A stretch of 64,000 bases of DNA, from assembly GCA_950295325.1 (NCBI GenBank), contig OX485805.1, positions 11,160,501 to 11,224,500 of the forward strand, read 5' to 3'. Origin of the DNA: Polytrichum commune. Lineage: Eukaryota; Streptophyta; Polytrichopsida; Polytrichales; Polytrichaceae. The position numbers were made by a program, and so were the translations under genes. The notes beneath the pieces were generated by a model. It had not been told where the DNA came from. It searched no databases and saw only the letters and a list, made by a program, of their open reading frames with translations. Below are positions 20,975 to 57,636 of the stretch, piece after piece. Position 1 is the stretch's first letter, and every line of letters starts with the position of its first letter.

Positions 20975-21257
20975 CTTTCATCTCCGATGCCTCCTTCTTT
21001 ACATTGTATATAGGTCAAGAACTTGCCTGGACTCGCCTTAATAGAGTAATGGCAATGTGTGTCTGAACTCAAGCCATTGCATTGCAATGTATCCTGTGCT
21101 GCTGTCCTCCATACCATACCATGTGCGCATTGCGTTGACAGGGAACTAACATCTGTTTGTTGCAAAATTCGTCGCAGAGTTGGGTCTGCAGGCGTCGGAG
21201 TAGTCGCATAGTTTCCCCACATCTATTACAGGGCGCTTATTCTTTTTATGCCTGTTG
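20940..21257 (+). repeat. AIM24 3'-end duplication, copy 1 (left part)
   Basis: The last AIM24 codons and the 3' flank match a second copy at 36463-36885 (shared CATCTGTTTGTTGCAAAAT, TTTACATTGT, CATGCC/CATACC, GTCGCAGAGTTGGG). Copy 1 continues after the copia insertion at 36335-36460 (TAACTTGACAAACAATCTCC...). The insertion therefore cut an already duplicated block. The 5-bp insertion duplicate TGTTG ends this left part. Confidence 0.85.
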
Positions 21258-21466
21258 TGTTCGACATACATATAAGTATGTAGTTCAGTACTCCCTAAGT
21301 ACTCCTATGTATAAGTAGAAGTCGTATACAAGGAAAGAAAGATATGACTGTGCACATCTATTAGTCATGACTATTCACAATATATAAGAGGAGATGAATC
21401 TCAACATGATTCAATTAAAATCATGTATTCAACATGCGTTCTTGTCTCCCTCATACAATACTCACA
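21258..21466 (+). repeat. Copia 5' LTR
   Basis: It starts TGTTCGACAT and ends CTCACA. It matches 36123-36329 through long shared words such as AGTATGTAGTTCAGTACTCC and TTAGTCATGACTATTCACAA. TATATAAGAGGAGATGAA near 21380 could be the TATA box and transcription start region, since the same words are conserved in the other LTR. Confidence 0.93.
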
Positions 21467-21478
21467 TGGTATCAAAGC
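21467..21478 (+). promoter_or_regulatory. Copia tRNA primer-binding site
   Basis: TGGTATCAAAGC lies immediately after the LTR end. It differs by one base from TGGTATCAGAGC, the complement of the 3' end of plant initiator methionine tRNA, which primes minus-strand DNA synthesis in most plant copia elements. Confidence 0.9.
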
Positions 21479-21902
21479 GATTAGTTTTTTTCACATGGTC
21501 GAGAGTTCTGGGAGGAGATTGTGTTGTAAGTATTATGTGCTGTAATTATTGCGGTAAGCATGTGTGCCGTTGGTGAACAAAGATCGACTTGGAAACAACA
21601 CAAAGCATGCTCGAATTCCCACTCTCTCGGTGGAAAAAAACCATGCTCGAAATCCCACTCGATGAATCACGTGCTTGAAATGCACATGATTCATTTGCTG
21701 AAACTACGGTTTGGTACAACAATCTCTCTTGCCTTATATAGGCAAGACGCACTTAGAATTTGATGCCGCAATGGCCACCATTTGAAACATAATTTGGTAA
21801 TTTCCACATTCAACTAAATCACATAAAGGATTGGAGAAATGATTATTCTGGATCATTAAATGAAATCATGAAAATCAAATTCTTGATTTGTCAACAATAA
21901 AT

Positions 21903-23160
21903 ATGGCAAGCCAAGGAAAAATAGATATTAGCCATATACCAAAATTTGATGAAACATATTTTTCATATATGGAAGCATAGGTTAACATTATTATTCATAT
22001 CTAAGAAACTTTGTTCAATTGTAAGTGGGGCGGAGGGTAAACCTGTTCAACCCTATGCTACTAAATTTTTGGCCTGGACTGTAGTACTAATTGTTAATGA
22101 AACAGGTAGCATCATGGATTGGGAAGGAAAGGATACTAATCACTATATTCAGTAATTGGAGATTTTTTCATGATTTTGGGACTATTTAAGGACATGGTTT
22201 TCAAATAAAAACAAGAAAAACACAAAAATATACTCATTGTGACTTCATAACGTGATTTGCATGGGCAACACTAACCAATTTGGCACAAATACATGTCATC
22301 AAAATGAGGATATTGGACCACATAGTAAACCATTTGCATTTATTTTGGGACTTTCCAAAGTTTCCAATTAACGAATATAGTGATACTATCACATTAACAA
22401 TTATAACCAATTGCTTAGATAATAATGTTGTCTCACACATTCAATCCAAGTTAACTGTTAACCTCAAACGAGGCTTGGCAAGAATTCATAAGGATTTTTT
22501 GATTCCCATGATGATGTCACCAAAATGTATCTAAAAGACAATATTTATAATTTGAAATTGAAAGAGGAAGAAAGTACGGTTAGACATATTCACACATTTT
22601 GTTCAATGTGTGAACAATTAGCTGCCACATGTGCAACATTGTCCGATGACGATGCGGTGCTCCACTTGATGAGGAGCATCCCTCATATCGGAATTTCATT
22701 TCTTCCATGAGAAGACAACCTAGCTTAACCTTACAAACCCTAATCACATATTTACTACAGGATGAGACTCTTAATAAGAGCATAAATGCTATGGCAGATA
22801 GCACGTCCGCCCTATACATAGGTAAAAGATCTTATGTTCTGAAAGGAAAAATACAAAAACATTGGCCAACAATCATCTAGAGGAAGGGGAAAATGCCCAC
22901 TACTTCCTCGAAGTTTCATAATAATAATTTTAGGCCTAACATGAAAAAGAAACAAATTCGGTGTTTCAAGTGTAAGAAACTTGGTCATGGCATTAGAGAA
23001 TGTCAAGTAAGAATTGGAAAAGATAAGGCGATTGCAATTCAATCCAATGTGGTCATGAAAACCCCTAAATTATATGTAGTTGCATTAGAAGAAGGGAGTG
23101 ATGACTATGGTATTTAGATACCGGATCAATGAATCACATGTCTTATGACATTACCTCCTT
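21903..23160 (+). pseudogene. Copia gag and start of protease, broken
   Basis: The start is an ATG at 21903 (MASQGKIDISHIPKF), the usual plant copia gag opening. A frameshift near 21960 moves the frame to KHRLTLLF. A stop at about 22153 is followed by further shifts. A copia gag middle is recognisable (EEESTVRHIHTFCSMCEQLA with YLLQDETL later). The nucleocapsid zinc knuckle CFKCKKLGHGIREC lies at about 22959-23000, with the CX2CX4HX4C pattern intact. The protease opening LDTGSMNHMSYDITSF at 23115-23160 carries the catalytic DTGS motif, and the frame is cut by the Ty3-type insertion immediately after. Continuation of the same protein is at 32466. Confidence 0.9.
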
Positions 23161-23550
23161 TGTCGTGTAAATAACGATCATGTGTCACTGCAGCTCGAGT
23201 ACCAACCACCACTAACAAACAACACTAAAATATAGCAAAGTCACACATAAACAACACACCTCGACATGCCCCCTCTCAGCTGACTATGGAGTCCCGCCAA
23301 GCAGCTAGGACCAACGCCAATCTAAAGGGCATGGATAATAAAAGATTGCTCCGCAACTAACTAGTGTGGTAAACGTTATTCCAAGGAACTGTAGGCTGGG
23401 TGCAAGGTGAGCCCCATCTTTAATCGCCTCTGATGTTTGGCCATCAGATCCCAAAGAATTAAATTCACCGCCTCATGTTGATTGCGTATCTAAGCCATAA
23501 CTCCTCATTTTCCATTTGGGCAGACACAAGATGATGAAAACCACACAGGA
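23161..23550 (-). other. 3' non-coding end of the Ty3-type element, with polypurine tract
   Basis: On the minus strand the sequence GCTGAGAGGGGGCATG (about 23267-23280, reading downward) looks like a polypurine tract, directly followed by TGTCG at 23266. From there to 23161 the strand ends CGACA, giving a TG...CA-bounded 106-bp segment that would be the 3' LTR or what remains of it. It does not visibly match the other end of the element at 32461, so a deleted or highly diverged 3' LTR is the likely reading. Confidence 0.5.
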
Positions 23551-23765
23551 TCATTGAGTACGATTGGTGGAAGCACCAAGTACCGAAGATCCTCGACAGC
23601 GAGGACAACTCCACTGTCCAGATGGTAGAGAAGTCAAGGGTGGCCTCAAGTATGCCATGTGCCAATCGCGTTGACACTGATCACACAAGAGCATAGTAGC
23701 CGCTCATTTCTTCTCTCCACACACAAAACATGGAAGACCCTCTGGCACAACGGCCAGTTCATGAT
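23551..23765 (-). pseudogene. PHD finger at the C-terminus of the Ty3-type polyprotein
   Basis: After the integrase tail the minus strand encodes PCFVCGEKK, a stop (TGA at 23704-23706, probably from CGA Arg), then MLLCDQCQRDWHMAYLRPP and SGQWSCPRC, ending at TGA 23551-23553. Spacing fits a PHD zinc finger: CX2C, 11 residues, CX2C, X4, H, X2, Cys (here Tyr), then W-X-CX2C. The sixth ligand has changed TGC to TAC. PHD fingers read the histone H3 N-terminal tail. Placed after integrase it could occupy the role that the chromodomain has in chromoviruses, steering integration. It is inactive now because of the stop and the lost ligand. Confidence 0.85.
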
Positions 23766-23926
23766 GAACTGTACCCTCAATAGGTAGATGACATGGAGCA
23801 CAATTTTTGGAATGTTCGCGACATTCCCTGCCATCCTTGCCTTCCAACAACAACAAACCACTCGGCAACACCTCCTTCACCCGAAGGATAGTGCGCCCCG
23901 CCCTGACATCCAATGTCGTAGGCGCC

Positions 23927-24870
23927 TCACGTTGAAGATAGACATAATCCCTCTGCCGGAATCTCCGCAACTGAGGTCACGTTTAGATTTAGATTTAGAC
24001 TCGGGAGAATAGGCTCACGTCCATACAATAACTGATACGGGCTGTAGGATGCCAAAGAGGCCTGCCTACTAAATCGATAGCCTATAGCAATCCAAGGCAA
24101 CATAAGGTCCCAATCCCGGTGGCTTCCCCGAGGTAATCCATACTTCCTCAAGCCACGCTTAGTTGTCTGAACAACCCGTTCAGCCAAGCCATCTGCCTCC
24201 GGATGATTCCGAGAGGTGGTACGGTGATCTATGAGTGCCTTAGTGCACAACTCCTCAAAAACACCAAGGAACTCCCTCCTTTGGTCTGTCAACACCTCAG
24301 CCGGTGCTCCAAAACGTGCTAACACATGATCCAAAAAGGCGGCCGCGGCCAACTCTGCCGAGTTTTGGGGTAGAGCAACAAGCTCAATCCACTTGCTAAA
24401 ATGGTCCACCATCACCAAAACGTACTTTGCTCCACGTGGTGTAACCACCAACAGCCCTGCAAAGTCCAGCGACCAACGGTAGCCCAATCCCATAATAGGT
24501 AAGGGCTGTAACTGAGGTGATAAGGTGTTAAAGCTAGACTTGACCCGGTCACAAACTTCACACCTCCCGACATAGGCAGCCACCTGCTGATACATGCCAG
24601 TCCACCAATATTGGCCACGTAACATCGAATGTGTCCTGCGTATGCCAAAATGGCCAAGTTCCTCGTGCACTTGTCGCACCAAGGAGGCCCTCTGATCCGG
24701 CCTAGGAACAATACGCCTTGTGCCATCCGGCCACAATCGAAATAACAAACTGTTCTCCCAACGGAACCTTGTTACTCGATGTCCAATCCAATCCCTTTCC
24801 ATTGCCGAAATAGACAAAAGAAAAGTACCCTGTTGAAGCTTATGCAATACGGGAAGATCCTCCCATATAT
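23927..24870 (-). pseudogene. Integrase of the Ty3-type element
   Basis: The N-terminal HHCC zinc domain is present (HEELGHFGIRRTHSMLRGQY, then CEVCDRVK). The catalytic core follows, with SLDFAGLL carrying the first Asp, VLTDQRREF the second Asp (Arg where Gly is usual), and HPEADGLAERVVQTTKRGLR the Glu. The core is otherwise long and readable. GREPILPSLNLNLN is the usual end of the core, after which a frameshift near 23970 moves to the frame RRFRQRDYVYLQREA, the start of the GPY/F-like C-terminal segment that leads into the PHD finger. The frame is continuous with RNase H upstream. Confidence 0.92.
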
Positions 24871-25019
24871 CCGCAATAGCTTGAGGCCGATCGGTCTCAT
24901 TATCCAAGCCCTGTATCGGAATCACAACAGATGCACTAGAAAATAAAGTGAGGTAGGCAGCCGCGTGCCAACCTGGAACCGCCTCTCGATCATAATCTCC
25001 ATACCACCTGGCCCCAGTC

Positions 25020-26535
25020 AAGTCCTCATCTGAAGGACTTGGATTGCATGAGAGTCCATTTGCATCCATGTTGGTAATCCCAACACGGTGTACCACCTCA
25101 AAGTCATATTCCTGGAGTAACAAAGCCCACATAGCAAGCTTGCCAATAAGCTTATCCGACTCCTTGAGCCACCGTAACGGCTGATGGTCAGTTACTAAAG
25201 TAAAGTGTTGACCATAAAGATACGGCCGAAAATGGGCAATAGCCCATACCGCCACCAATGTTTCTCCCTCGTATGATGAATAATTAGCCTCCGCCGTGTT
25301 ATTGCTTCGCGAAGCGTAAGCAACAACATACTTCCGGCCAAAATCATCCTTCTAAGTGAGAACTGCTCCCAAACCCAATGAACTCCAATCCGTATGCAAT
25401 TGGAAAGATTTGGAGACATTTGGACGTCGAAGCACTGGAGCCGTACCCAGTTTCTGCTTCAATGTCTCAAACGCCTGTTGTTGCTCACGACCCCAAGTCC
25501 ACGGTTGGTCCTTGCTCGTGAGAATGGTGAGAGGCTTGGCGATCAAGCTAAAGTTCTTGACGAATCGCCGATACTAATTCGCCAAGCCCAAGAAAGCACG
25601 AAGTCTCGGCACATCAACCGGTGCCGGAATCTTCTGCAAAGCGTCCACCTTAGCTTGTTGTACCCCAAGACCTCCTGGAACAATCATATGCCTTAGATAT
25701 GCCAGCCAGTCATAGAAAAACTTACATTTGCCGTGGTGCAAGCGCAATCCCCACCGCTGCAACCGTTCAAAAACGGCTTGCAGACGCCTCACATGCTCAT
25801 GTGGTGTTGTGCTGAAGATGATCACATCGTCTATGTAATACTGAGCAAAGGGCAAGCCAGAGAGAACCTGATTCATCATCCGCTGAAACTCAGCGGGTGC
25901 ATTCTTCAGGCCAAATGGAAGAAACTTCCAATGATAAAGTTGATATTTCCCATCTTGATCAACTACCCAAAATGCGGTCTTCACCCGATCTCCCGTAAGT
26001 AATGGAAGTTGGTGATATCCGGATCTCAAGTCCAAGGTGCTAAAGACCCGAGAAAATCCGATGACATCGAACAACTCCTCCGGGATCGGCATGGGATACC
26101 GATCCGATTTGGTCTTCTGATTAACTGGACGGTAATCCCCACACATCCGCTTCTCCGTCCAATTGCCAAAGATATCCTTCTTCGATGACATAACTGTAGC
26201 ACAAGCATATTCCCCGTTGGAAAGTTCGATTAACCCTGATGCCAAGAGCTCTCGGCAACGAGCCTGAACGCCAATCCGCTCGGAAACACTGAGCCTGTAA
26301 GGTCTCCGAAAAATGGGATGGTCGTCCTCCAAGTGAATGTGGATGGGTTTTCCTTTATAACCTTCAAGATCCTGAAGGCTAAAAACAAAACATTTACGGT
26401 ACGAGCGAATAAATGCTCGTACCTTCCGGGCCTCAGCACTAGTGAGACAAGGGCCTAATTCAAGTGGCCAATCATCAAACTCTGTGGTCTCCCTTTCCAC
26501 TAGAAGAGAGCCACCTGGTGCTGGCACGGACTCTA
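25020..26535 (-). pseudogene. Reverse transcriptase and RNase H of the Ty3-type element
   Basis: The RT contains RMCGDYRPVNQKTKSDRYPM, FSTLDLRSGYHQLPL, LPFGLKNAPAEFQRMMNQVL and the catalytic YYIDDVIIFS, followed by LRAFLGLAN and, after a TAG at 25574, YRRFVKNFSLIAKPLT. RNase H begins FQLHTDWSSLGLGAVLT, where the first catalytic Asp is retained. A TAG near 25352, probably from CAG, precedes KDDFGRKYVVAYASRSNN. YSSYEGETLVAVWA supplies the Glu and TDHQPLRWL the Asp. All these are standard Ty3/gypsy landmarks. Two stops break the frame, and otherwise it is highly readable. Confidence 0.95.
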
Positions 26536-26539
26536 ACTG

Positions 26540-27800
26540 CTAATGAGAGGAGGGGGCATTAACCATGCCCCCAACCTCCGTGCTAGCAATAGAGTCCATC
26601 CCCTCTTCATCACCACCAATATGTGATGATGAAGCCACCACCGGAGGTGAAGAAGCCAAAGCAGTATAAACTCGTTGAGCTTGGAGCTCCTCCATTACCT
26701 GCTGCTTGAATCGAAAGATTCGTTCGGCTTCTCCAACCCTGACATCAATTCCCTCCTTCATGGATGTGGACCGTTGTGCCCCCTGACCAGAATCCTCTGC
26801 CCCCAGAGACAATAACTGGTCACCATGATGCCGTTGCAATGCAAGGCATAAACTAACAGTCCACACCATGCTATGGAGATCCATGGCTTGGCCCAATACG
26901 AAGCGTCGTTGGCCCTCAGAAAGGCCAGGAGCTGCGGTGGTACTAGTGCGGAAGCCCATGGCACGATCTCGTTTATATCGGCCAAGGGTTCGGTGTGGGT
27001 TTTGGTGTTAGCATCCCACACCATACCTGGCCCCTGATCGCGGAAGGCGAATGATTGTGGAAACGTCATAAAGGTGGGAAAGGCCCTCCGTGGTGCCCCC
27101 ACTTTGTTGACTAATGCCTATGGGGGTAAATCATCTCGAACAACCGGCAAAGAGGTCCGGTTTGGATCCAAGATGTGATCAAAAGGTGGAGTTACTGTAG
27201 AAATTGTTGCGGCCAAAGTAGATGACGGTGTGAGGTTGGTCTAAATCCACCGAGGCCGGTGGGCATAAGAACCAATGCTCGCAGCATCCACAAAAATGGG
27301 ATCTCCAAGGTGTTGATGAACATAATGATCGCTTTCCAATACCTTGTCCCGAGAGTCTCCCAACAATGGTACATTCTCGAAGATATACCTTGGCGGGGTA
27401 TGTTGGTGGGAAAACCACCACTGTATGAGGCGGATGAGGTCCCAAAATAGACTAGACCTGGGATCCTCTAGACCTCGGCCGGCTCCAGCATGTGAATGGC
27501 CCTGGCATGGTCATCCTGCAATTACCATATCCACCGGACCCAAGTGTCGTAAGTCGGCCTCACTGATGAGTGTAACATCACGAGGGAGACGTGAAAAACA
27601 CCCACGAATGGCAGTTGGAGGTAACTGCTGGGGGTACAATACCATCAATTGGTGAAGATGGTGACGAGCCACACGGGTGGACACTTGAGAGTTGTCCACA
27701 TAGACATACCGTCTAACCGTGAGGCCAGCCTCCAATACGGCCGCTAAGCTTGTGCCGATGCCCCCAAACAGTTCCACCAAAGTAATCCCCGCGTCTGGCG
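26540..27800 (-). pseudogene. C5-cytosine DNA methyltransferase domain inside the Ty3-type polyprotein
   Basis: Between protease and RT the minus strand encodes the cytosine-C5 methyltransferase motifs in order: motif I LVELFGGIGTSLAAVLEAGL (SAM binding), VYVDN (motif II), DMVIAG then PCQGHS (motif IV with the catalytic Cys), YIFENVPLLGDS (motif VI), HRPRWI (motif VIII), PTFMTFPQSFAFR and MGFRTSTTAAPG (motif IX region), and LGQAMDLHSM (motif X). The wording is nearest to DNMT3-type enzymes. The Trp before PCQ is now TGA (27511-27513) and the Trp after RPRWI is TAG (27241-27243), both single G-to-A changes. A third TAG lies at 27118-27120 and a one-base frameshift near 26980. The catalytic Cys codon itself is intact. 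A low-complexity linker to RT follows, ending at TAG 26540. Confidence 0.92.
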
Positions 27801-28149
27801 ACTGCCATAAAATGGGATGTGCCAATGCCGAGAGGACACCCGGTATGACCGGTGTCCTAGGACTGAGAGAGTGAACAATATCCTCGCACCTCCGAAATAG
27901 CTCGGCGGAATCACGCCAAGGAGGAAGGGGATCCTTGGGTTGGCGCACCAATGCACCCTTAGGTGCCATATCCCGTTGATCGTCTGTACTCCCCATGAAT
28001 GCCAATGACTCCTCCAACAATGCGGAACCATAAGGCAATGTGTCCACCATAGCACCACATCCAAAAACCATAGATAATGGTACTATGGTTGCGGCCGCCG
28101 CGAAAGCCACGGGAATAAGTTCCTTGCGGCCATCCCCAGCCGACCAACC

Positions 28150-28580
28150 TGGTCGGATCCACGCCTTCTCAGTCCAGTTGGCCAAACCAAAACCAAGAGG
28201 GTAAAATGCTTGCTGACCAACTAAAATGTCATAGTTGGTCGCATCCGTCACCGCACACCTAAGAAGAAGAGGTGCGGGTGAATCTCCATGCTTCACTCGG
28301 AAACTAAGCTGTAATGGCTCCCGAGTATAACACATGGCCCACTCCACGTGACCAATGGATGTGACAATGGTGAATGGACAGGGAGCCAAATCCTCGGCCG
28401 TCAACCTCAACTCTTGGGCAAACCTCTTGCCGATCATAACTGGCTGTGCCTTTGAATCCATCATCACACAACGGGGAGCAACCCGAGTAGCCTTGCTCCC
28501 AGTGCGACTGACCACCAAAATTCTGGTATCATTCACCATACGCACAACGCCGGGTCGAATGCCGCGGCGCTCGCGGACAG
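28150..28580 (-). pseudogene. Aspartic protease of the Ty3-type element
   Basis: The segment VAPRCVMMDSKAQPVMIG shows the retropepsin active-site region, where the usual DSGA is DSKA, so the conserved Gly is lost. Downstream TDATNYDILVGQQAFYPLG corresponds to the conserved flap-to-C-terminal pattern D.ILLG. It lies in the same uninterrupted 903-codon frame as gag and the start of the methyltransferase (30222-27511). A Gly-to-Lys change at the active site would disable it. Confidence 0.8.
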
Positions 28581-29299
28581 GTCTAGCAGCGACATCAGAC
28601 AGATAGGCTGCACCCGCGGATACTGGTGAATCATAAGACGTGGTCGGTGCCTTGTCATTTGAGGCGTGTGCGTCAAAAGACGCAATGGTCTCTGCCGCAA
28701 GTCTCGCTCGCCGTTTGGCCACACCCTCAGGATCTTCAGAAGCAGGGATGTCCGTAGTGGCTTGAGCCACGGTCAGAGAAGGTAAGGATGCCTTCCCTTC
28801 CAAAATCCTACCTGCTAAGTAAAAAACCTTAGCAGGTTGGAACTCTGGCGATGACCACTCCATGGCCGTGAACAAAGGTGTGTGCAACACTTTGGATGCC
28901 AACGTGTGCGCCACATCGGTCGCTGAATGTGAAACTTCATCGTTCGGATGACGACCACTGACAGATTGGACGACATCGGCCAATCCAAAAGATAATGGTA
29001 GTTGTGCCTGAACAATTTGGTCCGCGGGCGTATTGTCCCGAGCTCGCGAGCTTGCCACATATTCATTTGTGGTCGAAGGTATGGATTGTGACACGGCTTG
29101 AGCACGTGTCACGGCCGCGGAACTCACCACCTCGCCCGAGGCTCCGAACATATAGTAATCTGGAGTGGAAGAACTAACCTGAGCTCCGGAGGAAGACGGT
29201 GAGGCCAAGATTTGGCCGGATGACACCAAGCTTTGGAACCTCTCCTTCATAGCTCCAATCTTCGCCTCCAACGTCTTCTCCCGGTCGGAAGAAGGATGT

Positions 29300-30615
29300 T
29301 TCTCAGGATGGAGAGCAAAGCAGTTCTCTACCGCGTGATTGTTCCGCCCACAATGGGAAGACTTCAACTGCTTGGGTAACTGATTACCCGTCGTCCCCTT
29401 CGCCGAGCCCTTAGCGGGAACAAATGGTTTCCGCTTCGGAGTAGTGACGGTCTGGGCTTGCCTTTGCTTCGAAGGACAGTCCTTCTTAGCATGGCCGGCC
29501 TGGCCACAAGACCAACAATACATGGTCTTGTCTACCTCGGCCTCCGCCAATCCTGCAGCCGCAACCGGAACTCTTCGGGATTTGCTAGAATCTACTAGTA
29601 GGGATACCAAATCAGTGGCGTCGTGCTGACACAATGCACGATCACACTGCTCCACAATGGCGAATGCCTCTGCGAGTGTCGCCCGACTACCATAATCCAT
29701 GATGATCATGGGCAACGCCAAGTCAAGGAGGCGTTTGTCAATCTTGGACAAAAATACCTTCATCAATTGACTTTCCGCAAACACACCTCCAGATTCTCTG
29801 GCAAACCTCGCCAACCTCGTATACATGGTACGAGGTGTATCGTCATTTTTCCGTCTAAAATCTTGTGTCCGCTGCATCTGGTCCCGACGGAAACCTCTGT
29901 ACTCCTCATGTAGATGCAGCTCAAATGCCCGCAACGGCTCAAAAACTGGCGGAGCCCCCAAAGAGGCTAAAGCCACCTGGGTAGCCTGGGCATAACGGGA
30001 GAGTGGAAGAATGGGGCTCGACGTACTCGCCACAGCGGGAGCAGAATCCTTATCCTTGGGTTCACCAGAAGAAGCTCCCTCCACGTCCACCACAAATACT
30101 CCCTCCGGCACCTCCGATTTAACCTCAGGGACGGCCATGAAACTGGAAGCTGCGCCTTCTTTCAATGCGGATACCAACTCAACCCGAGTCTCCCAGTACC
30201 GCTCCACCTGGCGCAGCTCCATTCAATGAGCCTCCGTCCACTGCTCATAAGTTTGGAGAGCTTCATGCTCCAAATGCTGAGGCAGAAGCTCGAACGCATA
30301 CCAATCGTTAAAATTGGTATTGCATTGGCGTTTCTCTCGCATCCACGTACGAAACCGGATTTTCCAGTCTTGCAGAGAAATGGTCCCTCCTCGACCGGAA
30401 AACCGGTCCCGTATCCCTCCCCTAGTCTCCTCCTCCATATCGTCAAAGGTTCCCACCCACAGGACGTGAGACCGAGTAATAGTCCCCCACGCCGAAGTAG
30501 GCTGAAAAACCTCGTTGGGTGCTACCACTGGTTCAACGTCCGAGAGATCCGAGGGATGACCTTCCGATGCTCCTGGGGACGGAGAACGATAGTGTTGAGT
30601 ACGAGTTGTAACCAT
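29300..30615 (-). pseudogene. Gag of the Ty3-type element
   Basis: ATG at 30615 opens MVTTRTQHYRSPSPGASEG, a usual Ty3 gag opening. A TGA at 30223-30225 (after EQWTEAH, probably an original TGG) interrupts it, and the frame resumes with MELRQVERYWETR. The capsid-like region includes FELHLHEEYRGFRRDQMQRT and MYTRLARFA. Two zinc-knuckle-like motifs follow, CWSCGQAGHAKKDC (about 29476-29520, CX2CX4HX4C intact) and SHCGRNNHAVENC (about 29310-29355, first Cys lost). Gag and pol share one frame apart from the breaks, consistent with a single polyprotein. Confidence 0.88.
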
Positions 30616-32461
30616 AAACCCACAATGGGATGGTCACCCAATCAACAACCCAAATGAATTAGTATCCAGGTACAAAGAAAAAAAAAAGTCAAATGCAACC
30701 TACACCTGCAACCACCACCAAAACTTATGGTCTGCTGGTCATTAACCCAGCCTCACCACAAGTGAAAACAAGCACTGCCCACTTGGTGCACAAACAAAGG
30801 TCCCGTCGGTCATTAATCCGACCTCACCTCCACATTACCCTATCACAATCTAGGACTATACAAAATGGGGCAGTACTAGAACACTTCAGCACTACAGCCT
30901 GCCACAGGGGAAGGTACCAAAACAAAATACAAGAAACAATGCAAGAACAGCACTGGATCCTCTTCCCCAAAACAACATTCAAGCAAAAATTGAAAATGAC
31001 CGCAACCAACTGGCACCCGCCTGCAGTTGGTGGTCAAAATGAAGAGTCCCTATTGCTTAAGAAAAAAAAAATGCTACCTATGCACATCTCTCATCTTCCC
31101 ACTACAACCTAAGAATCCCTCCTCACAAGAATGCCGGGAATATGTGTTGACAAACACAATTCGACCCTAATAATAATTTATTTTAGGCCGAACGGAATTC
31201 CATATGCCACCCAATTTCCAATGACACACCTCATAAATTTCGTGCAACACAATCTCTAAAAGCAATCCCAAACACCTTAATATTTCATAAGAAATTTGGT
31301 TTCATCTTGTATTCATGATTAATGAAAACAAGAAATTGACCCCTTAGAGAGAAAAGAAAAATGAGAAGTTGAAGGAAAACATAAATTAATAAATTAATGT
31401 AATTAAAAATAATGCCTTAATTAATTTAAAATAAAAATAAAAATAAAAATAAGACGGATTGTCACTACGTAACCGGTTGGAATTGCACACACCCGGGTCT
31501 CAACCGCTTACGCCCAAAGAATCTCCCCGATCCACGTATTAGTTATGTGGGGGGGGGGGGGAATTAATTAACCCCAGCTGAGGGAGGGAGTTAATCAATT
31601 AAATAAACCTAGCTGCAGGCAGCCAGGTACAAGCAAGCCGGCAAGTACAGGTAGCAGCAGGCAGGTACAGATAAGCAGTAGGCAGTATAGGCAAGCAGCC
31701 GGCACATACAGATAAACAGCCACCGAGGGCCGGCAGGTGCCACAGGCGGCCTTCTACACAGGGGCCTGTGCAGACAGCAGAGGGAGGCAGGCCGCCTTTT
31801 TTTTTTTTTTTTTTTTTTTTTTTGGGTCACAACTGTGATCCCCTTTGAGGATCAAAAATGCCCCTACAACTCTCACTTCACAAAATCATGCTTGTGAAAA
31901 ACTCATGACAAGAAATTTCGTGTAGTATTTAGAGATTTCTCACCACAATTCAAAGTGATGTGTAAACTTCACAAGCACACCTCTTTCTTCTTGTTTCTCC
32001 GCTAATCCGCGATGTTTGTCATTCTCCACTCCAAAATTCCGCAACCACTTGTCCTCACATTTTTTCTTGAATGTTGGAGCTCAAAATTTGAAGAAAAGAG
32101 AAGGAATCATGTACATTCTTGCCAAGTGAGAAGGAAGAGAGTAGAACATTCATAATAGCTCTAAATCTCTCTTCAAATGCATACAACTAGTCAAGCTATC
32201 TCTCACTCCACCAAGGGAGAATCCAAGAGTGTAAGTAAGGGAAGAAGATTTCAAGATTTATTGCAAAATCATGCAATCTACACCTCACACAAGCTCTCTC
32301 CACACACTAACTCACAAGACTTGACTTGGCAAGAATGCCAAGCCAAGGAGGAGGTTCCTCACTTAGGAGCCTTCCTCTCCACATCTAGATTCATTCATCC
32401 AAATCTAGATGAATGAAATCCAACGGATAAGGTGCGGCCGTCGACGCCGCATACCGTGACA
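30616..32461 (-). other. 5' leader and presumed 5' LTR of the Ty3-type element
   Basis: About 1.85 kb without coding potential precedes gag. A TG...CA-bounded segment at about 31147-32461 (plus strand TGTTGACAAA ... CCGTGACA) could be a 1.3-kb LTR, but no counterpart is visible at the other end, and no convincing tRNA primer site follows it. Within it are a G12 run (31549-31560), a degenerate CAGGTACAG/CAAGCAGGCAG-rich purine-pyrimidine stretch at 31613-31790 and a T run at 31797-31823. Between about 30748 and 30828 GGTCATTAA..C.ACCTCACC occurs twice. Confidence 0.45.
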
Positions 32462-32465
32462 CCTT

Positions 32466-35400
32466 TGTTACCTATAAAAAATGGGACAAGGTGATGATAC
32501 CACACATGCAATTGTTGGTTAAGGCGATGCATGTATTTCACTTAATGATGGCCAAGTTAGAGAGATAAGCAATTTGCTACATGTGCCAGACATCCAGAAA
32601 ACCTATTCTCAGCCAAACAATTTTGATATTGCGGGTGGCAAAATTTTCATTAAAGATGGTAATTGCATTCTCCGCAATTCTAGTGGTCTGGTGATAGCCA
32701 AATGCACACTAGGAACAAATTTGTATAAACTTGGTATGACCCATAGACAAAAGGAAAACAATCCCATTAGCCAAAATATATCCAGTCTCAATTTGGCCAG
32801 CCTTTGGCACAAAACATTGGGTCACATTAATAAAAGATGCTCGGGGGGGCCACTGTGTTAAAAAGTTAAGGATATAGGTGCGAACAACCACTATTTTATA
32901 GGGAAGTATTACTTTCAATTTTTTTTTTTTCACATGCTATCATTATGTAAATTTCTACTTTGGGTCAATAGAAAAATGGCTTGCATTACTTATAATTTCA
33001 AATTACCTATTATTCCATACCCTACTGTACTTTAAAGATGTCCAGTGCCATTTTTGATACCCTATATTATTCTTAAGCCCAATTATAAATTTTTGCTCCC
33101 ATGTTTTTAAAATACCCTATCATTTGTTTGCACGTATATTGCTACTCCAACCAATGACTATCCCCCCCCCCCCAAGAAAAGATGTCTATATGAAGTTCAA
33201 AGTGCATCTAAGGGGATAGGTCGTTTTGATGCAAGTGCTTTGTCATTATGTCCATGGTGTTTGAAAGGGAATCAACACCGAGAGAAATTCCCTAAAGTAG
33301 ATGCTACAAGAGCACAAGAACTTTTGGAGATACTTCATAGTGACATTTGTGGCCCCCTGTGGACTTCACTTTTTCCAGGATGCACTCACTTTCTAACATT
33401 CATTGCTGACAAGTCTTACTATACAAAAGTTTATCTTCTCACATACAAATCCAAAGTTGTACAAAAAATTTCAAGAATATAAAATTGAAATGGAAAACCA
33501 GATTAGGAAGAAGATCAAAGTTTTGAAATGTGATAATGGGGGTGAGTCCAAAACCATAAATTATAATTTGTTTTGTCAAACTCATGGAATCAGATGCCAA
33601 TTCACTACACCCTATACCCTACAACTAAATGGAGTTAGTGAAAGGAAAAATCAAACCCTTTAGGAGCAATCTTAGCCATGCTCTTTGGTTCTGAATTGCC
33701 AAATCGATATTGGAGTGAAGCAATCCAAACTGCTAATTATATACAAAACAAGGCCCTTACTAAAGCCTTGAGTAACAACGCAACTCCTTTTGAAGAACGG
33801 TTTGGGATTCCACCTCAACATTGGAATACCAAATCTTGTGGGAGTATTAATCAACCCACCCAATCAACAATCAATCATGTCACAAGGTAACCCTTACAAA
33901 GGAGATTGTAGATTTAAATCACACTATTCTTGAAGAATTTTCAAGGTTAGGTGTTCATGATGAAGATACTAACTTAAATCATGAGGCTCCAAATACAAGT
34001 CAACCAAGGCAAAGTTCAATTGCACATCTACGAAGTCATTTAAGGAAAAATCCACAACCCCATTCACGTCCCCAACGAGAAACTAGAAAACTTACAAACT
34101 TCATTGAAACTATAGAAGGTCGTAAAATACCACGAGCTTTAATTTATCATAGTTGTATCATTATTGAGCTTAATACTTACAAATATTGGGCCTAATGCCT
34201 ACCATTGGGCCTAATGCCCACCATTGGGACGAAGCCAACCAATATGAGTTGAATTCACTTAAGGAAAATGATACATGGACCATGTTAGTTCCTTTGCTGA
34301 GTGAACATAAGTCCATCATTTGCAAATGGATCTTCAAAATTAAAACAAAGTTGATGGCAATGTAGCTAAGTATAAGGCATGTCTAGTTGCTCGCGGATTT
34401 GGCCAAATCTATGGTGTGGACTATGAAGGGACCTACTCCCCTATTGCCAAAATCACCTCAATTTGGGTCTTACTAGCTGTAGCTACCCAATTTGATCTTG
34501 CAATTCATGAGTTTAATATCAAGACTAGTTTCTACATGGTTTCTTAGAAGCATAAATTCATTTGGAATTACATGAGGGTCTGAAAGAATGGGGCAACAAT
34601 GATTTGGTCCGTAAGTTACTTAAGGCATTATATGGTCTACATCAGTCTTCACGGGCTTGGTACTACAAACTAAACACCTAGTTAGTCGCACAAAGTTTCC
34701 TACACACAAATGTTGACTCGAATATCTATATTAAGACTTACAAAGACTCCACTTTCATTATCGTAGTTGTTTATGTAGATGACTGCATTGTTATAAGTCA
34801 ACACCTCCATTTTTTTATATGAATTGAAACGTACTTTGGGAAAAGAGTTTGAAATGATCTATGTCTTGGTATACAAATCATCCGTAATCGAGCTAAAGGA
34901 TGGATGATGTTACGCCAAGAAAAATATTTGAGAGGATTTTACATTGATTTGACAAGGAGAATTGCTATCCCATTGCTACCCCAATGGAAGCTAGTTACAC
35001 GTTGTCCCAACTTCATCTCTTTCAACAAGATGGAATCGACCAATTTTCCAATATTATGCCATATCCTCATGTTGTTGGATGCCTTATGCATGCCATCATG
35101 CAAACAAAACCCTATTCTGCATTCTTTGTGTGCAACTTAGCCCAACATTTATCTAAATTTGACTCCACTAATTGGGAAAGTGTTGAAAGATTGCTGAGGT
35201 ATATTAATGGCACCTTCTTTTTTGGAATAAAATACTGCAAGAATCCCAATGGTTGTATCTTGCTAGGCTACTCCAATGCAGATTGAGTTGGTGACAAGGA
35301 TACCCGACGACCAACATTAGGTTATTATTATCTACTTGTTGGCACTATAGTGTCTTGGGCGAGCAAGAAACAAATACATGTGGCATTATCCAGTACCAAA

Positions 35401-35660
35401 TCAGAATACATGACTTTATTCAAAGCCACTACCAAAGCCACCTCGCTATGTTGTTTACTTCAAGACCTAGGCTTCCCTCAACTCCAACTGGCTTCAATAT
35501 ATATAGATAATCAAAGCGCTATTGCCTTAATTGCTAACTCCAAGTTCCATTCTTGAGGTAAACACATTGACACTCAATATCATTTTACACGAGACAAAAT
35601 TTTAAATAAGCACATTACCGTAAAATATGTTTCAACCACGTAAATGGTTGCCAACATTTT
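32466..35660 (+). pseudogene. Copia pol, remainder after the nested insertion
   Basis: Protease resumes as TYKKWDK and then LNDGQVREISNLLHVPDI. The pre-integrase region is LWHKTLGHINKRC, and after an insert CPWCLKGNQHREKFP. Integrase has LHSDICGPLW (first Asp), KCDNGGES (second Asp) and LNGVSERKNQTL (Glu). The RT begins near 34230 with ANQYELNSLKENDTWTMLVP, then YKACLVARGFGQ and VVYVDDCIVIS at about 34755-34800. RNase H carries SWASKKQIHVALSSTKSEYM and IDNQSAIALIANSKFHS with KHIDTQYHFTR. Many stops and frameshifts occur (for example at 33482, 33663, 35556), so it is inactive. Confidence 0.92.
32845..33176. mobile_element. About 330-bp non-coding insert in copia pol
   Basis: Copia coding sequence breaks off at a G7 run (32843-32849) and resumes after a C11-13 run near 33162-33173. 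The word AAAAGATG stands on both sides (32832-32839 and 33177-33184). The interior is AT-rich and repeats ATACCCTAT. It looks like a small insertion, possibly a MITE with G/C-run ends, but the termini are too simple to assign a superfamily. Confidence 0.5.
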
Positions 35661-36122
35661 TACAGAAAACTTGCCCCATGTACGACATGTAATGTGCATG
35701 TAGGCTCTTGGCCTCCAATCAATATTCCAAATGAAGGCATAACCATAACACACGCCATAACATTGACACAACCACCAATGGAGACAATGACTCCTCTAGA
35801 CACTTCAAGTCTCCAACCTCAAGTATTATTGGCTAAAGTGGGAGCTTTTGCCTCACCTATCCATCTATCATGTCTCACATGTCATTACCATTTATATCCA
35901 CATGGACCTGATCCTTTGGAATGTTAGTAGACATGACAATATGTAGTCTTAGGTTCACGACCTTACAAGTCAATGTCAAAACCAGAAGCATTGCCGAATG
36001 CAAAACTACACTTTGTTTTCACAAAGTTCTCAATGGGCAAAGTTTCATACAAAGAATGATGTTCAAAAAATTGAAAGACAATAATTGAAGAAATTACTTA
36101 GTGACTATTAAACTAGTGGAAG

Positions 36123-36329
36123 TGTTAGACATATATAAAAGTATGTAGTTCAGTACTCCCTAAGTACTTATATGTATTAGTAGAAGTCATACTTATAGAA
36201 ATGATATGACTATCCACATCCATTAGTCATGACTATTCACAATATATAAGAGGAGATGAACCTCAATATGAATATAGTTAAAGTCATGTATTCAACATGT
36301 GTTCTTGTCTCCCTTATACAATTTTAATA
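36123..36329 (+). repeat. Copia 3' LTR
   Basis: It starts TGTTAGACAT and ends TTAATA (the canonical CA has decayed to TA). It matches the 5' LTR along its whole length with scattered substitutions and one or two small indels. CGTTG follows, the second copy of the target duplication. Confidence 0.92.
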
Positions 36330-36885: not shown

Positions 36886-38125
36886 CCATAACTCACTCCC
36901 CTCCACGCATGCCTTCGAGAAACGAGCCACTCCCTCTACAATAAGCTCTTGCTCAGCTGACATTGAAAGTGCAGGTTAGACACAATTATTTGTAAAACAT
37001 AAAATCGGTGCGTTGCAAATAGCACAGAAGTATGGCCAAGTTTTATTCCCTTAGATGCTGAATACTTCTCAACTTAAATAAGTATGTAAAATGGAATGGT
37101 TACTCGATTGTTGTGGCTGCCTCACTTCAAGCTATGATCACTTTCCAAGGAAATCAATGCATTCTGATCCCCCCGCAAAATTGCAGATATCTCCACGTTC
37201 CTCAATTGCAGACACTGAATGTGAGTCTTGCATGGAGTGGGCGATGTAAGGTAGAACTAGATTTAGAAAGTGAGTTCCTCCCTCTGTCTGAACAATGTTA
37301 GGTTTGATATAAGAGTGTTTTGGTACTGAATTGTGATAGGTAGACTTATACAATCTCTTACATGGAATTGGCAATAAGTTAGAATTAGATCTAGAAAGGG
37401 AGCACCTCCCTCTTGTTGAACAATGCTAGGATTGATGCCCGTTTGGCGCAAGAAGTTTTGTAATGAAGTGATAGACTTGCATACCATCTTGCGTCCCATG
37501 TGAAGAATGGGCATCAATACATACTTCACACTTTGCACTGCCAATCTCACTACCCACTTCACAACCACGTAATTTGTATTTTATATCAAGAATCATTGAG
37601 GTTTCTGGAATTCTTCAAGGATCAACATCCGTTAAAGATGCACCTTCATTCATAAGGTGTGTGGGACTTACTATGTGGTCACTCTTCTTAGTAGAGTATC
37701 TAGATTCAATTGGTATATGGTAGTAAATCTTGGCTAGGGATTCGTGGTGTCTACGAAAACTCATCCATTGTGTACGTGAGATGCAATGAATTAAATTCAA
37801 GCATGTAAATGCCTGTTTTATGTGTTTTTACTCCGAAATTTGCTCCGAAGGCCCCAATTTAGTTTAGGAGTGTCTGTAATAGTTGAAATGATACAGCCCT
37901 CAATCTTGTAAAGGACTCGTTTTTACTAGAGCCCCTTGATCCACGATGGACGTGTAGGAAATTCGAAACGCAATGGACACGGAATCGACATAACCACGGA
38001 GACAAGCTTTTAGAAAGTGTTCACCGACTACTTCCATAGGTTTCTCTGTAACGGTTAATGCCTCTAATGCAAGCCTCTGTAATGCCATGGGAATCGACTT
38101 CAAATTCTTGAGACAGTCCTTGACC
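36886..38125. other. Spacer with a 127-bp direct duplication
   Basis: No gene was recognised. AGAACTAGATTTAGAAAG and following bases at about 37246-37310 recur as AGAATTAGATCTAGAAAG at 37373-37436 (GAACAATG.TAGG.TTGAT shared). A 75-codon minus frame at 37900-38127 (LKNLKSIPMALQRLALEALT) looks somewhat gene-like but matches nothing I recognise. Confidence 0.5.
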
Positions 38126-38129
38126 ACCG

Positions 38130-38425
38130 CGCAAGCTTTTCGAGGGCTTTCCGTGGGGCTAAGCTAGGAATATCATCTTCACAGCTTGTAATTAAGCTGG
38201 AATCCCCACGGCCTCAACACCTTCTCGTAAGCTGAGAGAGAGACAGCGTATGGCGGCCCGCGTTCGTGGTCAGCGATTGGAAAGATGAGAGTGATGAGCT
38301 CCCCGTCCAGCGTAAGGAGATCAGCCATCTTCTCCCCCCACTGCGGCCTTAAAACTTGGCTGCATTGCACAAAAGAACGTGTAATCGAATATCACGTCGA
38401 ACTTGTGTGGCGAATTTATGATGAA
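38130..38425 (-). pseudogene. Thiol methyltransferase pseudogene, 3' third only
   Basis: The minus strand aligns closely to 42350-42660 of the intact methyltransferase. Shared text includes DGELITLIFPI, GPPYAVS and AYEKVLRPWGFQL, and the plus strand words AAAGAACGTGTAATC and ACGGCCTCAACACCTTCTC are identical. Similarity stops near 38425, so the first two thirds, including the SAM-binding motif, are missing. A small insertion after the GFQL codons brings in an early TGA (YKL then stop), and the PQW.EKM segment has been shortened with Leu-Leu changes. It could not encode an active enzyme. It probably arose by partial duplication from the gene 4 kb away, both in the same orientation. Confidence 0.88.
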
Positions 38426-38429
38426 AAAA

Positions 38430-42230: not shown

Positions 42231-42335
42231 ACACTTCAGGTTTGACACTTCGAGAATTCAAATCGAGGAACATTACACTTTGACATAGACAGCAACTTAA
42301 AAAATGTATAGGAATTTGAATCGCACCGTGACAAT

Positions 42336-43031
42336 TCAAGCTCTTGAGACGGCCCTTGCCCATCGCGCGAGTTTTTCTTGGCCTTTCCGTCGGGCCAAGC
42401 TAGGAATATCATCCTCACAGCTTGTAAGTTGGAATCCCCACGGCCTCAACACCTTCTCATAAGCTTCGACAGAGACAGCATATGGTGGCCCGCCTTCGTG
42501 GTCACCGATTGGAAAGATGAGAGTGATGAGCTCCCCGTCCAGCGCAAGGAGCTCTGCCATCTTCTCCGCCCACTGCGGCCTTACACTCGGCGGAAATGCA
42601 CAAAAGAACGTGTAATCAAATATCACATCGAACTTTTGTGGCGGATTGTATGTGAAGAAATCAGCATTCAGAAATTCTACAAACTCAGAGCTGGAACACT
42701 TCGAAGCATGTGCCTTGGCAACCTGGAGAGCCGTTTCCGAAATGTCTAGGCCGACAACTCGCCGATTTGGACTGGCCATGGCCACGACATCATAGCCAGA
42801 GCCGCAGCCGGGAACCAGAACCCTCCCTTCCCGAATTTGATTCTCCTTCACCAATTGAGCAACCACAGGGTTCACCCCCTGTGCATCCCACGGGCTAGTG
42901 CCCTCCTTCCACAACTGCTCCCATGCTGTTTCCATAGGTTGAGCCGCCGTGACTTCGCGTAACCTCGCTTGTAACTTCTGATGAGGTGTTAGCTCGGCAG
43001 CCTTCGTATCCATGTTCGGGAATGGTTCCAT
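42336..43031 (-). CDS. HOL-type thiol/halide S-methyltransferase
   Basis: The product is a SAM-dependent methyltransferase of the plant HARMLESS TO OZONE LAYER / TPMT family. Members methylate bisulfide, thiocyanate, thiols from glucosinolate breakdown, or halide ions, usually in the cytosol. From the ATG at 43031 it has 231 residues, close to the usual 227. Landmarks in order: AWEQLWKEGTSPWDAQGVNP near residue 40, motif I GRVLVPGCGSGYDVVAM near 67, VVGLDISETAL (acidic SAM-ribose contact), FDVIFDYTFFCAFPPSVRPQ and the C-terminal YEKVLRPWGFQL. The same frame is open 19 codons upstream to a TTTCAG acceptor-like site at about 43103, so an upstream exon adding N-terminal residues is possible. A truncated pseudogene copy lies at 38130-38425. 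Confidence 0.9.
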   Translation of the reverse strand: MEPFPNMDTKAAELTPHQKLQARLREVTAAQPMETAWEQLWKEGTSPWDAQGVNPVVAQLVKENQIREGRVLVPGCGSGYDVVAMASPNRRVVGLDISETALQVAKAHASKCSSSEFVEFLNADFFTYNPPQKFDVIFDYTFFCAFPPSVRPQWAEKMAELLALDGELITLIFPIGDHEGGPPYAVSVEAYEKVLRPWGFQLTSCEDDIPSLARRKGQEKLARWARAVSRA

Positions 43032-56764: not shown

Positions 56765-57586
56765 ACCACCCACGTTTGCAAAGTGAAACTGCCTAGAGGT
56801 GTCCATATAGTTGTACGGATAAGGGAGTGCATACCTAACGGCATGTGCAAAACCTGCACTACATGGACCGGCACCTGAAAGGAGAGAATGTATTATATTA
56901 TGGAATAGGCAATGGCAACAAAGGTAGAGTTTTTTTTAGGAGGGGGGGGGGGGGCAGTGTAAGAGTGAGCGAGAAAAACGAAATTGGAGGTATGGACCTT
57001 ATATAGAAGTCTCAATATGATTTGGTGGGAGATTCCATAGTCAGTCCAATACTGAAAATTTGAAGGTTCCCTCCCTATTGTACAAGGTCCTATCTTGAAA
57101 GACATGTTATTATTTGGCAAGGCGAGGTAATAGAGAATGATTGCTTGGCAAGTTGATGTGCTTCGTAGTTGATGGGAGTACTCTAGATCATGAAACCGAG
57201 TTTACACTCCTATGAATTCATCTTATCAAAGGAGTTTTACTATTTCAATCAATGTGGACTTTAGTAGACTAATGTAGATCATGAATTGTTTGAAGTGAGG
57301 CTCCCCACTTTAGATTTGAAATGCTTAGAATTACAAGGAGCATGTGTGATCAATAAAGGGTGAATGTTCTTAATACCTACCGAGGGGGAGGACAAACCGG
57401 TGGCGGGACCAGTGGATGGAGGGTGAAAGCATTAATTTCTATCGTAGAGCCCATGGATTTTTATTTGAAGCTAACTTAATTCCTAAATGAGGGTAGAAGA
57501 TCCTGAATTAGCGGTGACATGCCATATGAAATATTGCCACCTTCATGAATGTTTACATTTTAATTGTCACTTCCTAATGCACCTTT

Positions 57587-57636
<50 letters not shown>

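Follow-up and report, generated by a model that had tools for sequence, protein, structure and literature searches.

The DNA considered here is a window of 64,000 nt of Polytrichum commune (OX485805.1), within which all positions are counted. On its minus strand it holds a decayed Ty3/gypsy element with a C5 DNA methyltransferase domain between protease and reverse transcriptase (RT). An earlier note on this DNA had proposed that a Ty3/gypsy element carries a C5 methyltransferase of its own, and this, now in a land plant, is borne out by a profile match and by the domain in sister copies. Methyltransferase motifs I, IV, VI, VIII, and X lie in the correct order, as had been claimed (~27777-26884), and the Pfam DNA_methylase search that the note called for returned PF00145, both for an 89-aa open fragment (E = 2.1e-9) and for the domain translated with X in place of stops (5.6e-14). 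The catalytic PC, ENV, RxR, and motif X expected of a C5 methylase are all present, broken by stops in the window copy. Two details of the earlier reading gave way: instead of a frame interrupted by one mutated codon, the domain has three in-frame stops (TGA at 27511-27513, TAG at 27241-27243, and TAG at 27118-27120) and, upstream of motif X, a frameshift, and the coding region is not a single polyprotein through RT, since a conserved TAG in a leaky context splits the first open reading frame (ORF1) from a pol in the same frame.

With a TGA in gag and stops in pol in addition to those in the methyltransferase, the window copy is dead. It differs privately from all of the 13 sister copies compared at 45 of 3,325 sites, and 32 of these 45 differences are C>T or G>A. 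The order of protease, RT-RNase H, and DDE integrase, together with its RT clade, makes the element one of Ty3/gypsy type. Its termini read TGTCACGG...CGACA and are flanked on both sides (23157-23160 and 32462-32465) by AAGG, a target duplication of 4 bp; duplications at three full copies elsewhere in the genome are TGTC, TACA, and GATG, giving 4 bp in all four copies. The TG..CA ends and the target duplication of 4-6 bp expected of a long terminal repeat (LTR) retrotransposon are thus present. A DIRS order was considered and rejected on the rve integrase and the 4-bp target duplications, as DIRS elements have a tyrosine recombinase and no target duplication.

The methyltransferase domain and its copies in the genome

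Profile and predicted fold place the methyltransferase nearer to DNMT3 than to DRM, DNMT2, or the bacterial enzymes. With a profile built from 18 ORF1 proteins, the best PDB matches were DNMT3A/3B/3C (1.5e-16), with M.HaeIII (6.7e-9), DRM (6.9e-8), and M.HhaI (1e-6) weaker. When the predicted model of a homologue (P0012; predicted local distance difference test score, 82.5) was used in a fold search, all 50 matches listed were DNMT3 chains, the best with E = 9.2e-15 and a target template modeling score of 0.78. The catalytic Cys is kept in 88 of the 89 rows whose alignment reaches its position (the window copy being counted twice), and in a set of 39 diverse rows only this column and one other are invariant.

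The domain is widespread in the host. The genome searched comprises 408 Mb, and counts refer to scored matches only (149 of 514 candidates for the methyltransferase query, 123 of 352 for PF00145, and 124 of 1,635 for RT). The methyltransferase query matched at least 149 places, all with E < 1e-90, and the PF00145 profile at least 123, of which 70 are common to both lists; including 53 places with a PF00145 match alone, there are at least 202 distinct places with a methyltransferase match, spread over all seven large contigs. Because 149 places match the window methyltransferase at E < 1e-90, chance is excluded. A fragment that landed by accident in this copy, or a chimeric contig or contamination, might have been suspected from the broken state of the window copy, but is refuted by these 202 places, some with intact frames, and by relatives in named Marchantia and Closterium records. 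The earlier note had called for intact copies with gag, protease, methyltransferase, and RT in that order. An open gag-protease-methyltransferase frame, in which ORF1 runs for 1,340 codons or more with no stop inside the match, was found at 21 distinct loci (a hand count over both lists). Of the 124 RT matches, 29 lie in an open frame of 1,040 codons or more, again with no stop inside the match (also by hand count). Many of the matches with stops lie on contig C4 at ~42-58 Mb, a region that is perhaps non-recombining or heterochromatic.

Sister copies lacking the domain would have told against the proposal. A listed same-strand methyltransferase stands upstream of 93 of the 124 RT matches, at a median distance of 1.56 kb. 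Among the 31 unpaired matches, 20 were read (all 12 that rank within the first 85 rows, where identity is 85% or higher, and eight of the other 19), and 18 of these have a methyltransferase in whole or in part. Methyltransferase sequence therefore lies upstream in 111 of the 124 scored RT matches, with two lacking it and 11 not looked at. At L054 and L056 (C4 near 58.3 Mb), RT and the leaky stop were found with no methyltransferase within 2.6 kb upstream; these two loci may represent one deletion that was duplicated. A second subfamily in the same genome (L031-L035 and L058-L065) is ~65% identical in the methyltransferase, has the junction GAC-TAG-CAATCA, and includes several places with open frames of 1,386 codons.

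The methyltransferase domain is under purifying selection. Twelve copies were picked from 30 loci for their open frames (L018 has a TGA), and the ratio of nonsynonymous to synonymous change (dN/dS) was taken as mean dN over mean dS, with pairs of almost zero synonymous change dropped. It was 0.295 for gag-protease, 0.217 for the methyltransferase, and 0.114 for RT, as against 1.058 for the 91-codon tail that follows the methyltransferase in the same frame. Tested against neutrality in five single pairs, the domain gave p values of 1e-8 to 2e-7 and the tail 0.3 to 1. Because the unconstrained tail acts as an internal control, the domain is kept and not just carried along. Between the two subfamilies, dN/dS was 0.087-0.133 for the domain, where dS is saturated at ~2 to 3, and 0.060-0.074 for RT.

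Leaky stop, PHD finger, and split repeats

Four features go beyond what the earlier note had described: the stop between ORF1 and pol, a PHD finger in the integrase, repeats that are split, and a family that was recently active. The junction was read at 56 loci (L001-L030, L031-L036, and L046-L065), and 52 of them, from two subfamilies, fit TAG-CARYYA. The first set has 25 CAATTA and four CAGTTA, L021 being without the junction; all six of the second set fit, five as CAATCA; and 17 of the 20 in the third set fit, the others being L046 and L051, which read TAGTAATTA, and L055, which has a small deletion after the TAG. In total, the hexamer is CAAUUA at 30 of the fitting loci, CAAUCA at 13, and CAGUUA at nine. 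All 55 loci that hold the junction have TAG, and none has a sense codon. These loci share descent and so are not independent; the two subfamilies nevertheless differ inside the hexamer, yet both match CARYYA. ORF2 is open in the same frame as ORF1, and in each of three full copies its first Met comes no earlier than codon 116. According to excerpts of PMC2754532, CAR YYA beside UAG is the requirement for readthrough in tobacco mosaic virus (TMV), and 32% readthrough was measured for the TMV context with a plant reporter. Given where ORF1 ends and the leaky stop that follows, each Gag is predicted to come with a methyltransferase, and a fraction of them to continue into pol.

The integrase ends in a PHD finger. 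In the window copy, one zinc ligand is changed from Cys to Tyr and one stop is present; compared with the PDB, the integrase tail matches chromatin-reader PHD fingers such as those of CHD4, PHF12, KDM5, and UHRF1. Among the 120 pol homologues listed (the best 120 of 3,836), 32 have the strict PHD pattern, including both of the nearest, and many of the other homologues are partial. Only L039 of the full copies keeps the strict pattern; one zinc ligand has been lost in L037, by a change of His to Tyr, and one in L038, by a change of Cys to Tyr. The finger is not specific to land plants, because a Klebsormidium pol (P0186) also has a Pfam PHD match.

Three full copies (L037-L039) have the layout A1(333-335)-ORF1-TAG-ORF2-B1(106)-A2(335)-B2(106); in the window copy, A1 and B1 are the only repeats. 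In place of an identical complete LTR at both ends, all three have A at the 5' end and B-A-B at the 3' end; it is therefore on its coding domains that the element is named gypsy-type, its termini being atypical. The split repeats were examined at both ends of these copies together with L040-L042. A1 and A2 are identical at 332/334, 333/333, and 334/334 positions, and B1 and B2 at 104/106, 106/106, and 106/106. With both pairs 98-100% identical in all three copies, the family must have moved very recently. Tf1-type elements are self-primed, and here the stretch just behind A1 shows 13-15 nt of complementarity to part of A, compared with a maximum of 9-10 in 200 shuffles, which suggests that reverse transcription is self-primed as in Tf1. 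Both the A...B-A-B and the A...B forms would be explained by a circular form that opens where B meets A.

The features of the window copy are collected in Table 1. A second cysteine-histidine knuckle-like stretch lies downstream of the putative gag CCHC knuckle. The protease motif of the window copy is DSKAQPVMIG, as against DSGAQPVMIG in many relatives, and Pfam gave no protease match in this copy itself.

Table 1. Features of the methyltransferase-carrying element, with positions in the window.
Feature	Position	Strand	Basis or remark
Whole decayed Ty3/gypsy element	23161..32461	-	ends set by comparison with three full copies
Repeat A1, 5' end	32128..32461	-	comparison with full copies
Primer-binding-like stretch, 14 nt complementary to A segment near +124	32113..32127, approximate	-	complementarity
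ORF1 start, N-terminal part of gag, MVTTRTQHYRSPSP	30223..30615	-	ends at in-frame TGA in window copy
Putative gag zinc knuckle, CCHC	29470..29520	-	Pfam E = 0.0022, below curated cut-off
Aspartic protease region, DSKAQPVMIG	28170..28480, borders approximate	-	Pfam protease match in relatives only
DNMT3-type C5 methyltransferase domain	26840..27800	-	PF00145, profile, predicted fold
ORF1 tail 3' of methyltransferase	26543..26839	-	no constraint detectable
ORF1 stop TAG, then CAGTTA (UAG-CARYYA leaky context)	26540..26542	-	pol open, same frame
ORF2 start, reverse transcriptase	25574..26539	-	RVT_1 E = 2.5e-27
RNase H, integrase zinc domain, rve integrase core	23927..25573	-	Pfam
PHD finger, integrase C-terminus	23596..23730	-	PF00628 E = 1.3e-9
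Polypurine tract, immediately before B1	23267..23278	-	sequence
Repeat B1, 106 bp, 3' end of window copy (A2, B2 absent)	23161..23266	-	comparison with full copies

The element is itself nested within a Ty1/copia element (21257-36322), whose LTRs (21257-21459 and 36122-36322) are 87% identical and whose gag and pol lie at ~22250-23117 and ~32523-35556. Elsewhere in the window, a tandem repeat with a unit of ~91 bp occupies 40-548 at its start, a direct repeat of 87% identity (38099-38429 and 42335-42660) covers part of a TPMT-like gene and is perhaps a partial gene copy, and a near-perfect 54-bp palindrome lies at 57583-57636. The host also has at least three LEAFY-like genes (L043-L045), one of which has Asp and Cys at the type-distinguishing sites, which we take to be the moss type II residues. 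This agrees with a host that is most likely a moss, and a set of seven contigs of chromosome size would be in keeping with Polytrichopsida. Excerpts of PMC6588583 name the LEAFY type sites and one liverwort with a type II gene.

Relatives and possible function

Relatives with the methyltransferase domain occur in named records of Marchantia polymorpha (Mp_8g15430, Mp_2g26090, and MARPO_0091s0058) and Closterium sp. NIES-54, and relatives in Calypogeia, Riccia, and Klebsormidium were found by their pol. In an RT tree of 38 rows, from which Riccia was left out, these relatives belong to a clade of 32 (100/100) with six other gypsy pols outside, and the Klebsormidium rows fall in a group of seven (98/96). 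The methyltransferase and RT trees agree on all four supported pairs. Four kin (P0127, P0130, P0131, and P0190) have the methyltransferase in one uninterrupted ORF with pol. A DNMT3-carrying gypsy lineage exists in land plants, a statement that is independent of the host of the window because Marchantia carries relatives. This settles whether methyltransferase-carrying LTR elements reached land plants, the liverwort and probable moss carriers being land plants, though not tracheophytes.

What the enzyme does can be addressed by a model to which we give about an even chance. A long-lived streptophyte Ty3/gypsy lineage would have captured a DNMT3-type methyltransferase and retained it at the end of an ORF1 that also encodes protease and gag, the presumed particle-forming protein. 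Most ribosomes would halt at UAG-CARYYA, and a minority would read through into RT-RNase H-integrase-PHD. Made at the level of Gag, the methyltransferase would be packed in many copies per particle and would most likely methylate the element's own double-stranded complementary DNA (cDNA), in the particle or during integration. The insert would then arrive pre-methylated, doing less damage to the host and being hidden, while the PHD finger would anchor the integrase at chromatin whose histone H3 tails are in a certain state. Self-restraint or camouflage, which the earlier note had proposed as the function, fits such a scheme. Two results call for caution: element copies show no extra CpG loss, and a yeast assay of the Klebsormidium enzyme was negative, though inconclusive (PMC5890265). 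A more ambitious version, which we advance tentatively and consider possible at best, is that of a self-contained epigenetic cassette in which every Gag would carry a methyltransferase, the particle would be a methylating compartment, the leaky stop would set the ratio of methyltransferase to polymerase, and the PHD finger would pick the chromatin. Such a cassette may have been kept since before the split of mosses, liverworts, and zygnematophytes, and may integrate via a circle opened at B-A.

The same features may be read in other ways. The methyltransferase could have its main target not in its own cDNA but in trans, for instance by methylating competing elements or by changing the methylome of the host, as Gag-level output from many copies would yield much free enzyme and the protease could release the domain from ORF1; selection on a replicating element works most directly in cis, however, and we regard this as unlikely. 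It is rather unlikely that the enzyme instead shields cDNA from nucleases or deaminases, with methylation as such having no silencing meaning: we know of no deaminase barrier in mosses, although no search for one was made. Particles would nonetheless contain cDNA to be shielded, and such a role has been suggested for DIRS elements (PMC5890265). The domain is also linked to Gag, which binds RNA, and it might have been kept for nucleic-acid binding, dimerization, or RNA methylation. This appears quite improbable, as the residues of the catalytic and S-adenosylmethionine motifs are kept across very divergent members and the nearest profile and fold are those of DNMT3, not DNMT2.

Why a transposon would methylate DNA becomes testable in bryophytes, because the repeats are nearly unmutated in three full copies, 21 loci have an open ORF1, and selection acts on the domain. 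Sharp predictions about particles follow from a methyltransferase made at the level of Gag in the setting of a leaky stop, and the PHD finger hints at the way in which further copies are placed.

Comparison with known systems

Several parts of the element have counterparts elsewhere. Its stop resembles the tobamovirus type I leaky stop of TMV, with UAG followed by CAR YYA and an open downstream frame, a likeness known here from sequence; in contrast to its use in TMV, the stop stands between gag-protease-methyltransferase and pol. Like Tf1-type elements, it has a primer site complementary to its own leader region, as judged from complementarity alone, but unlike them it has split repeats. The catalytic domain matches host DNMT3 (DNMT3A/B and plant DNMT3) in profile and predicted fold, but is fused to gag-protease, with no PWWP or ADD match in the ORF1 proteins scanned.

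The precedents in a charophyte and in dinoflagellates that the earlier note named are correct (PMC5890265). In Symbiodinium, SymbioDIRS-Dnmt3 and SymbioLINE-Dnmt carry captured C5 methyltransferases (PMC5890265), and the former also shares A-coding-B-A-B repeats with the moss element; these are a DIRS element with a tyrosine recombinase and a long interspersed nuclear element, whereas the moss element has a DDE (rve) integrase and 4-bp target duplications. The closest counterpart is KnitGypsy-Dnmt3 of Klebsormidium nitens, with a DNMT3-type domain under purifying selection that was described within the Pol ORF (de Mendoza et al., 2018; PMC5890265); the legend of Fig. 4 in that paper gives the Klebsormidium DNMT-gypsy an A-coding-B-A-B order. 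Both elements have a Ty3/gypsy pol, a selected DNMT3-type domain, and DIRS-like A-coding-B-A-B repeats. In the moss, in contrast to the alga, the domain follows gag and protease as the last part of ORF1 and precedes a conserved leaky stop. Because its domain is in ORF1 and not with pol, we take the moss element to be a variant among DNMT-carrying gypsy elements and not a member of the published KnitGypsy-Dnmt3. The words PHD, Gag, and readthrough are absent from the text of PMC5890265, figures excluded. The moss element goes beyond the published Klebsormidium description in its ORF1-terminal methyltransferase before a leaky stop, in the PHD finger of its integrase, and in its abundance and youth in a land plant.
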